Position numbers and translations under genes: made by a program | Shown: positions 51,262 to 53,417 of the stretch, piece after piece | Numbering within the stretch: the first letter of the stretch is position 1 | Layout of the letters: each line of letters opens with the position of its first letter | Source: Chlorobiota bacterium | GTDB taxonomy: Bacteria > Bacteroidota > Ignavibacteria > OLB7 | DNA: 53,417 nt | Assembly (NCBI GenBank): GCA_016788565.1 | Contig: JAEUSP010000132.1 | Location: forward strand, 1 to 53,417 | Direction of reading: 5' to 3' | The notes under the pieces: generated by a model | What the model saw: only the letters and a program-made list of their open reading frames with translations | What the model was told of the DNA's origin: nothing | Database searches by the model: none

Positions 51262-52218
51262 CTACACCTTCACTTCCCAGCGTTCCTCCCACAGCCTCAC
51301 AACCCAGGGGTACATCCAGAAAACCAGGAAGGCCAGGGCGGTTCCGGCCATCATATCTACCATGTAGTGGTAGCGGAGGTAGATGGTGGAGACCACCACA
51401 CTAACCCCACCAACGGTGACAAACCAACGCCAACGCGAACGAAGCCGCCACGCCATTAACATTCCCAACACCGACATCATCGTGTGACCGCTTGGCATAC
51501 AGTCGCGGTTGACAACGGCGTAGGGGTCGGTCATCTGGGGGGTGATGTTGTTGCCAGCATTGATAAATGCACGGAACGGCTCGGTGAGCAGCACCCCCGG
51601 AAGCTCGCGGTCAATAGAGTGGAAATCATGGACTTGGAACCGGGGGCCAATCGCCGGCATCGCGAAATAGCAAAGGTAGCTTAGGAAAAAACCGAGCAGC
51701 AGCACCATCGAATAAATGCGGAACTGGCGCATGGCGTTTTGGCGGTAAAACCCAACCGCCGGGAACACCAACATCAACTGGAAGAAGTTGTACCACACCT
51801 GCAAGTATTCTGTCAGGAATGGGTTGGCAAAGCGGTATATCCATTCGGTTGGATTTACGCCAAACAATGCACGATCCCACGCCGCCAAAACATCATCGTA
51901 GTTTACCGGGTGAACCAGCGGGATGTAGTTGTGGATTTGGGCGTAAAACATATACCCGATTGGCAACACGTAGAACGACCGGAAGATGTGCGCCAACCGC
52001 CCTCCCGTTTGGTCATACCAAAGCGGAATGGCAACCGTTGCCAGGGCAACAAGAAGGTTCAGTTGCAGGATTGCAAAGGGGGATGAAATCTGGGGAAGGA
52101 AGACCAAACAGAGCGTGGTATAAACCAGCAACATGAACAAGATCATGTACTCCGTGCTCCAGAGTGCGTGGCGCAGCGTGCCCCACAGATTTTCCCGCTC
52201 ACGGTTTCCCGCTGCCAC
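51262..52218 (-). CDS. PAP2-family membrane phosphatase
   Basis: About 318 residues with six or more transmembrane helices. The PAP2 phosphatase motifs are partly visible: CMPSGHTMM (motif 2, the catalytic His) and RYHYMVDMMAG (motif 3). Residues RFANPFLTEYLQVWYNFFQLMLVFP and LSYLCYFAMPAIGPRF mark the AUR1/inositolphosphotransferase-like subgroup. It probably dephosphorylates or transfers phosphate on lipids in the membrane. The start is uncertain. The frame is open to ATG 52326 (128 nt inside rsmA); GTG 52218, with AGGCGG before it, overlaps rsmA by only 20 nt and is my choice; ATG 52146 would begin at the first helix. Confidence 0.8.
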   Translation of the reverse strand: MAAGNRERENLWGTLRHALWSTEYMILFMLLVYTTLCLVFLPQISSPFAILQLNLLVALATVAIPLWYDQTGGRLAHIFRSFYVLPIGYMFYAQIHNYIPLVHPVNYDDVLAAWDRALFGVNPTEWIYRFANPFLTEYLQVWYNFFQLMLVFPAVGFYRQNAMRQFRIYSMVLLLGFFLSYLCYFAMPAIGPRFQVHDFHSIDRELPGVLLTEPFRAFINAGNNITPQMTDPYAVVNRDCMPSGHTMMSVLGMLMAWRLRSRWRWFVTVGGVSVVVSTIYLRYHYMVDMMAGTALAFLVFWMYPWVVRLWEERWEVKV

Positions 52219-53020
52219 CCGCTGCCGCCTGCGCGAATACGCGGGCGAGGCGGAGGAAGTCCTCGATGCTAAGTTCTTCGGCCCGTTGCTGGGGGCCAAT
52301 TCCTGCGGTTCTGAGAAGCTCTTCACGATGTTCTGGATTTCCGATCAATTGGGCTAACGAGTTGCGCAAGGTTTTTCGCCGCTGGCTAAACGCAGCGCGC
52401 ACAATCTGCCGATGCTGTTTTGCGATTCCTTCAAGCTCGGGCCGTTCGGTAAATTGCAACCGAACCACTGCCGAGTTCACGTTCGGTGGCGGGTGGAAGC
52501 AGCGCGGGCCAACATTGAACAGCTTCTTCACTTCGGCATGGGTTTGCAGCCCCACCGAAAGGATTCCATACTCCTTTGTGCGTGGCCGCGCCACCAAGCG
52601 TTCGGCAACTTCAAGCTGCATCATCAAGGTGGCATCACTAACGGTGGGGCAGGCATCAATCAGGTGGAACAGGATGGGGCTGGTGATGTAGTACGGGATA
52701 TTTCCAATAACCCGCAATCGTTCAACGCCACTGCCGGAAGCAATCTGCGCAAGGTCAACCGTCAGGAAATCTTGCTCAATTACCTCCACTTTCCCCTGGA
52801 ACTCTGTTCGGATTCGTGCGGCGGCGCGTGGGTCCAGCTCAACAGCAATCAGGCGGCATCCTTGTTCGGAAAGCAATCCCGTCAGCGCCCCTTCGCCGGG
52901 GCCAATCTCCACCACAACGTCTTCCGGCTTTGGGGCGAACTGGCTCACGATTTTTTCGGCGATGTTCCGGTCGCTTAAAAAATGTTGGCCAAGCGATTTT
53001 TTGGGGAGTATCCGTTCCAT
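52199..53020 (-). CDS. rsmA: 16S rRNA dimethyladenosine transferase RsmA (KsgA)
   Basis: 273 residues from ATG 53020, the usual KsgA length; the open extension to 53188 covers a leader region and is rejected. It dimethylates the two adjacent adenines in the 3'-terminal hairpin of 16S rRNA late in 30S assembly. The N-terminus KKSLGQHFLSDRNIAEKIV, SAM motif I VVVEIGPGEGALTGLL (about 35-50), the acidic VELDPRA and the catalytic GNIPYYITSPIL are intact. The C-terminal helical part has SQRRKTLRNSLAQL. It overlaps the PAP2 gene. It is preceded by a leader of about 265 nt with its own small ORF and hairpins. Confidence 0.96.
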   Translation of the reverse strand: MERILPKKSLGQHFLSDRNIAEKIVSQFAPKPEDVVVEIGPGEGALTGLLSEQGCRLIAVELDPRAAARIRTEFQGKVEVIEQDFLTVDLAQIASGSGVERLRVIGNIPYYITSPILFHLIDACPTVSDATLMMQLEVAERLVARPRTKEYGILSVGLQTHAEVKKLFNVGPRCFHPPPNVNSAVVRLQFTERPELEGIAKQHRQIVRAAFSQRRKTLRNSLAQLIGNPEHREELLRTAGIGPQQRAEELSIEDFLRLARVFAQAAAGGSGKP

Positions 53021-53097
53021 GATGCTTTGGGGCAAAATACCACATTGAGCAAAGGGGCGCGCACCGCCCAGAACAAAGCCCGCTACCGAAGCAACAC

Positions 53098-53130
53098 AAA
53101 GCCCCGCCCGGCATTGCCGAACGAGGCTTT
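53098..53130 (-). terminator. Attenuator-like hairpin in rsmA leader
   Basis: In minus-strand RNA, 53116-53130 and 53098-53112 form a 15-bp stem with a 3-nt loop. Three of the pairs are G-U, so the stem is complete only in the leftward transcript. It is followed by GUGUUGCUU rather than a clean U-tract, so termination would be weak; it sits 77 nt before the rsmA start. Confidence 0.5.
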
Positions 53131-53163
53131 TAATTCCGTAGCAGCTTCCTCCTGAAAACGGTG

Positions 53164-53205
53164 CTAGCGATTCAGGAAGGAGGCCCACGTCATACTATCA
53201 GACAT
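53164..53205 (-). CDS. 13-aa leader ORF MSDSMTWASFLNR
   Basis: ATG at 53205 to TAG at 53164. It is preceded 7 nt away by AAGGAGG within AAGGAGGTGATCC (53207-53219), the exact complement of the 16S rRNA 3' end, far stronger than any other start in the window. The coding sequence contains CCTCCTT (minus strand, 53177-53183), which can pair with the Shine-Dalgarno and hide it. The peptide has no known family. It looks like a regulatory leader ORF for rsmA. Confidence 0.55.
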   Translation of the reverse strand: MSDSMTWASFLNR

Positions 53206-53219
53206 GGGATCACCTCCTT
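53206..53219 (-). promoter_or_regulatory. Full-length Shine-Dalgarno, potentially masked
   Basis: AAGGAGGTGATCCC on the minus strand, a 13-nt perfect complement to the 16S 3' tail (GGATCACCTCCTT). A 7-bp pairing with CCTCCTT at 53177-53183 would sequester it. Next to that, TCCTGAA (53171-53177) pairs with TTCAGGA (53150-53156); the two helices share the base at 53177 and so compete at that point. Confidence 0.65.
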
Positions 53220-53293
53220 GTTTTGCAGGGAACCATGATTCGCGCCCGAAGCCTCCCTGACAGTACCCCCGGCGCAGCACAATTACGGGGAGC

Positions 53294-53322
53294 AATATAG
53301 CCCCAGCAATGCGGGAGCGCAA
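53294..53322 (-). promoter_or_regulatory. Predicted sigma-70-like promoter for rsmA leader
   Basis: On the minus strand TTGCGC (53322-53317), a 17-nt spacer and TATATT (53299-53294). Transcription would begin near 53286 and give a leader of about 265 nt before rsmA. A 6-bp CAGGGA/TCCCTG hairpin (53254-53259 with 53226-53231) lies in the early leader. Confidence 0.45.
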
Positions 53323-53417
53323 GGGGGGATGAAAAATAATTTTGCAATTCCCCACAATTATTTTTCTAACCGGTCATCCCAGCTAATCGGCTCCACCTCG
53401 CACAGCACCGACTCTAG

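Follow-up and report, generated by a model that had tools for sequence, protein, structure and literature searches.

The window (the whole 53,417-nt stretch analysed) carries rsmA near its end and, upstream of it, a peptidase-like gene with an HExxH motif whose stop codon lies at 53360–53358. Between these two neighbours, on the minus strand, lies an RNA with the following features.

53294–53322, minus strand: promoter-like hexamers TTGCGC-N17-TATATT, read from the sequence
53090–53287, minus strand: putative RNA gene of about 190–198 nt, from its likely start to the terminator end
53269–53275, minus strand: 5′ strand of a pseudoknot, GCGCCGG, covarying with 53242–53248 in 14 copies
53254–53259, minus strand: 5′ arm of hairpin P2, CAGGGA, from the alignment of copies
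53242–53248, minus strand: 3′ strand of the pseudoknot, CGGGCGC, in the P2 loop, from covariation
53226–53231, minus strand: 3′ arm of hairpin P2, TCCCTG, from the alignment of copies
53207–53219, minus strand: segment 1, an extended Shine-Dalgarno (SD) sequence, AAGGAGGTGATCC, able to pair along the entire 16S 3′ tail
53164–53205, minus strand: mini-ORF MSDSMTWASFLNR, 13 codons, with its ATG at 53205 and a TAG stop at 53166–53164
53177–53191, minus strand: segment 2, GACGTGGGCCTCCTT, within the ORF, masking the SD and the start codon according to the predicted fold and pairing tests
53145–53156, minus strand: segment 3, TTCAGGAGGAAG, 3′ of the stop codon, an alternative partner for the 3′ part of the ORF
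53098–53130, minus strand: terminator-like hairpin of 15 bp with a weak T-tract, from a terminator scan
52199–53020, minus strand: rsmA, a neighbour whose membership in the system of the RNA is not supported

A sequence-only reading had described many of these elements, and every element that it listed was recovered. The 13-nt match to the 16S tail is AAGGAGGTGATCC at 53219–53207, with the 13-codon ORF at the right distance behind it. No 16S match was found in the window's own assembly, and the 16S gene of another genus of the same family ends ...GGATCACCTCCTTTC. Within the 4.58-Mb assembly AAGGAGGTGATCC was found twice, the second copy lying in a coding frame. The minimum-energy fold (−87.4 kcal/mol, z −3.4) contains the proposed masking helix, in which CCTCCTT at 53183–53177 pairs with AAGGAGG at 53219–53213, and CCCATGTC pairs with GACGTGGG. 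The competing hairpin is also present and is conserved far beyond the window's genome. The stem noted 77 nt before rsmA does exist, but what had been called GU-paired is the 15-bp terminator-like hairpin. Similarly, the hexamers of the promoter placed at 53294–53322 are there but are missing from the list of a stricter consensus scan; the pattern TTG(A/C)xx-N16/17-TAxxTT precedes several copies of the RNA in families f1 and f12 at a distance similar to that in the window. At 53020–53050, just upstream of the rsmA start, TATTTTGCC followed by AAGC occurs, also in a sister species and in similar form in G004, and may be rsmA's own promoter. The final 141 bases of the window (53277–53417) are identical to the final 141 of contig C13 (L003), which puts the junction (or branch point) of the two contigs precisely where the RNA begins.

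Comparison with the sister species (L036, JADZEY010000087.1) showed few changes in the RNA. Its RsmA is 92% identical to that of the window and the aligned 2.2-kb block is 88% identical overall, whereas the roughly 190 nt from promoter to terminator differ by 3 substitutions and 2 small indels, one indel being an extra in-frame codon (3 nt) in the mini-ORF. These few changes at 88% block identity, together with a layout that recurs in 12 further genomes, indicate that the RNA is conserved beyond chance. This near-identity block, and the fact that other genera carry the RNA at unrelated loci, delimit the putative gene at 53090–53287. The sister species was deposited as 'Armatimonadetes', a name that looks doubtful given that the other named RsmA relatives found were mostly Ignavibacteriales.

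A covariance model built from four copies retrieved five more in a second family (f12) of the class, a family search added a sixth f12 copy (G391), and wider searches, covering the phylum and a second class, yielded G557, G583, G783, and G781. The RNA was thus found as 14 copies in 14 genomes of one phylum and two classes. It is sparse, occurring in 4 of the 5 genomes from the window's family, in 9 of the 391 class members sampled, and in 4 (accepted copies) of 244 from the second class; its absence is weak evidence, because the large searches used strict filters. Weak model matches in G130, G237, and G817 were rejected for having no SD/ORF layout, and matches to a loose class-wide pattern in G016, G060, G225, G309, and G361 were judged to be chance from the matched letters alone. 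A mobile element was not indicated: no match was found in phage or plasmid collections, nor for two patterns searched in viral contigs.

Within the same family, the RNA adjoins rsmA only in the two genomes of the window's genus. In G002, which belongs to another genus, it faces a convergent gene, and in G004, of the same genus as G002, it lies about 300 nt before an unrelated gene, behind a strong terminator; the regions upstream of rsmA in both genomes lack it. Among the 11 of 14 copies whose neighbours were read, rsmA was adjacent in 2 and convergent genes were faced by 3. The neighbours vary between genera and are stable within a genus; in one f12 genus (L090, L091, and L093), three species share the same neighbourhood, before a gene starting MNHSPGFLALV or MNHTPGFLALV. 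Thus, the conservation expected of the leader was found for the extended SD, the mini-ORF, and GCCUC in 14 genomes, but, among the copies with neighbours read, upstream of rsmA solely in the window's genus. Because the RNA sits at unrelated loci while rsmA there is without it, the sequence appears to be a stand-alone RNA gene and not an rsmA leader.

Every copy has the extended SD GAGGUGAU[C/U]C, a GCCUC at a fixed position within the ORF, and its own terminator-type hairpin. The ORF has 12–14 codons in all copies, with start and stop codons kept. Its peptides are VSSNLLGASGDAC, LNNTFMGASAAC, MSDSMTWASFLNR, and MSDSSMTWASFLNR in the window's family; LKTNIGASGEAW, LKINIGASGKAC (twice), LKSNIGASGEVC, LSTNIGASGEAR, and LNSHMGASGVAW in f12; and, in the second class, MSDMQKGASGDAC and three similar peptides. 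Most are GASGxAC-like, a pattern from which the ending in the window's genus, WASFLNR, departs. In the ORF frame, pN/pS was 0.18 in the second class and 0.45 in f12, ratios that come from a small sample and are confounded by RNA constraints; the other two frames contain stops and gave no low pN/pS signal. The mini-ORF therefore looks constrained as protein.

The RNA is also constrained in structure. In its 5′ domain, the loop of hairpin P2 pairs with a strand just upstream, forming a pseudoknot. Because MAFFT had put the 3′ arm of P2 in copy A6 one column off, an alignment made by hand served for counting pairs. Across the 14 copies, standard pairs filled 90 of 98 cells, compared with 82.8 ± 1.4 for shuffled partners, and none of 10,000 shuffles reached 90, a count that is not a probability because the relatedness of the copies persists under shuffling. 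In several pairs both partners have changed (C-G/U-A, G-C/A-U). Further downstream, GGAGCCUC inside the ORF pairs with the SD (the 1:2 helix, about −11 to −16 kcal/mol). The GGAGG:CCUCC core of this helix is nearly invariant, and the SD:GCCUC pairing consequently gives no covariation; its extension, UCCC:GGGA in one family and UCCUAU:AUAGGA in the other, is a compensated change. The true 1:2 pairing was slightly better than that of exchanged partners, 36 of 2,000 exchanges being as good. Alternatively, a GGCUCC-like segment after the stop codon can take GGAGCC (the 2:3 helix), for which true partners averaged −15.0 kcal/mol; exchanged partners averaged −13.6, none of 2,000 exchanges doing as well, and shuffled sequence gave −8.8. 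Pairing of the 5′ end with the region after the stop codon was also considered, but such a stem was not upheld across the copies.

We consider it fairly probable (about 0.62) that the RNA is an autonomous mini-mRNA of about 190 nt in which the ORF masks the SD and a 30S subunit whose anti-SD tail is free opens it. In the proposed mechanism, segment 1 would pair with segment 2, hiding the SD and the start codon; segment 2 could instead pair with segment 3 after the stop codon, freeing the SD; and a 30S subunit with an accessible tail would open the RNA, upon which the peptide would be translated. The presumed trigger is thus the exposed anti-SD. The computed SD:16S-tail hybrid amounts to −19.4 to −24.6 kcal/mol across the copies, and since a hybrid of −19 to −25 kcal/mol is stronger than the masking helix, a 30S subunit with a free tail should win. 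Sensing of such subunits is accordingly a possible role on energetic grounds, and the mini-mRNA is possibly also dual-function.

The same pairing strength, far above the usual need of initiation, would equally suit a non-coding ribosome decoy or sponge that holds free-tail 30S subunits, its ORF being incidental or merely timing the ribosome's stay. A GA that separates the two parts of the SD helix fits this as well: it has no partner in that helix, yet it does not vary in any of the 14 copies, which would follow if pairing to 16S is the property being conserved. However, synonymous-biased change and the in-frame indel point to coding, and the start and stop codons kept in all copies do not suit an incidental ORF, so we regard a pure decoy as unlikely. 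We likewise doubt that the 5′ domain is riboswitch-like or protein binding, with a ligand or ribosomal protein on the pseudoknot setting the 1:2/2:3 balance and the tail being secondary. A conserved, covarying pseudoknot only a few nucleotides before the SD switch speaks for it, but no Rfam riboswitch or ribosomal-protein leader matched, and the RNA has no constant gene under its control, just a 13-codon ORF. Lastly, the original proposal, an rsmA leader through which unmodified or free 30S subunits exert feedback, is very improbable: adjacency and co-orientation in two species, and the read-through into rsmA that the weak T-tract makes possible in the window's genus, are outweighed by the copies of other genera, which lie elsewhere and end in hairpins of their own.

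The RNA was also compared with catalogued RNAs. Rfam 15 holds no family for the RNA, with no match at or above a family cut-off in the window or the copies, and neither ARAGORN nor Rfam matched a tmRNA or tRNA-like domain. The best sub-threshold match was CC2171 (RF01867), at 21.7 bits (E 0.012) in the window and 26.5 bits (E 0.0005) in the G004 copy, with no listed match for the other copies; by the Rfam gathering cut-off of 75 bits, the RNA falls outside that family. Conversely, the model built here matched one CC2171 copy only marginally (14.1 bits, E 0.016). The extended SD, a mini-ORF carrying ASG towards its end, and a terminator were all found in common with CC2171, by a feature list read here from four CC2171 copies (two exceeding the Rfam cut-off, the others falling slightly short of it) and lying outside the Rfam definition. 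These copies, annotated 'sRNA' (L103–L106) on Methylobacterium, Azospirillum, and Skermanella replicons, have a conserved VSHC...ASG ORF behind an extended SD, which suggests that CC2171 is a small mRNA rather than purely non-coding. No functional study of CC2171 was found in the open-access literature, most subscription journals being outside the search.

In Bacteroidia, bS21, bS18, and bS6 hold the 16S tail, and when bS21 is missing, ribosomes translate rpsU via its exceptionally strong SD (PMC9976891). In Flavobacterium, exceptionally strong SDs are preferred by ribosomes lacking bS21, the published threshold for their mRNAs being below −13 (PMC9976891). Compared with this class in SD strength alone, the RNA here lies at −19 to −25 kcal/mol, and on this analysis it would be a natural reporter of ribosomes lacking bS21. 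Because Bacteroidota ribosomes normally hide the anti-SD, a conserved RNA with a full-length SD and a self-masking mini-ORF offers a ready probe for free-tail ribosomes. It is conceivable, if still rather less likely than an even chance would allow, that a widespread class of mini-mRNAs, in Bacteroidota and (as CC2171) Alphaproteobacteria, senses exposed-tail 30S subunits and either makes an ASG-motif peptide or traps the subunits. The ASG motif common to both groups gives a testable lead, and a family filed as non-coding is suggested to bear a conserved mini-ORF.

Among known systems, the rpsU (bS21) mRNA of Bacteroidota resembles the RNA in having an exceptionally strong SD, used by free-tail ribosomes, in a phylum with a hidden anti-SD, but its product is a ribosomal protein and it is subject to autoregulation (PMC9976891), whereas the RNA here has a 12–14-codon ORF, a masking hairpin, and a pseudoknot. 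Leader-peptide attenuators such as trpL share the short ORF and the mutually exclusive 1:2 and 2:3 helices; an attenuator was nevertheless rejected, since the RNA has no constant co-oriented downstream gene, its neighbours differing by genus and some being convergent, and its terminator hairpin is separate from the switch. CC2171 is likewise a short stand-alone RNA with a terminator and an extended SD (AAAGGAGGUGAUCC in the strongest copies). Its mini-ORF start, (G/A)UG-UCU, recurs in several copies of the RNA here, and in three of the four CC2171 copies read, ASG stands a few codons before the stop and GCCTC(C/T) in the ORF can pair with the SD. It differs in its ORF of 25–27 codons (stop included), which starts VSHC, in its helices, and in that the pseudoknot domain before the SD was not seen there. 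Common descent of the two is plausible, and part of the likeness reflects common constraint by the 16S tail. Judged by its sequence features, the RNA appears to be an undescribed stand-alone mini-mRNA-like RNA with a design akin to that of CC2171.
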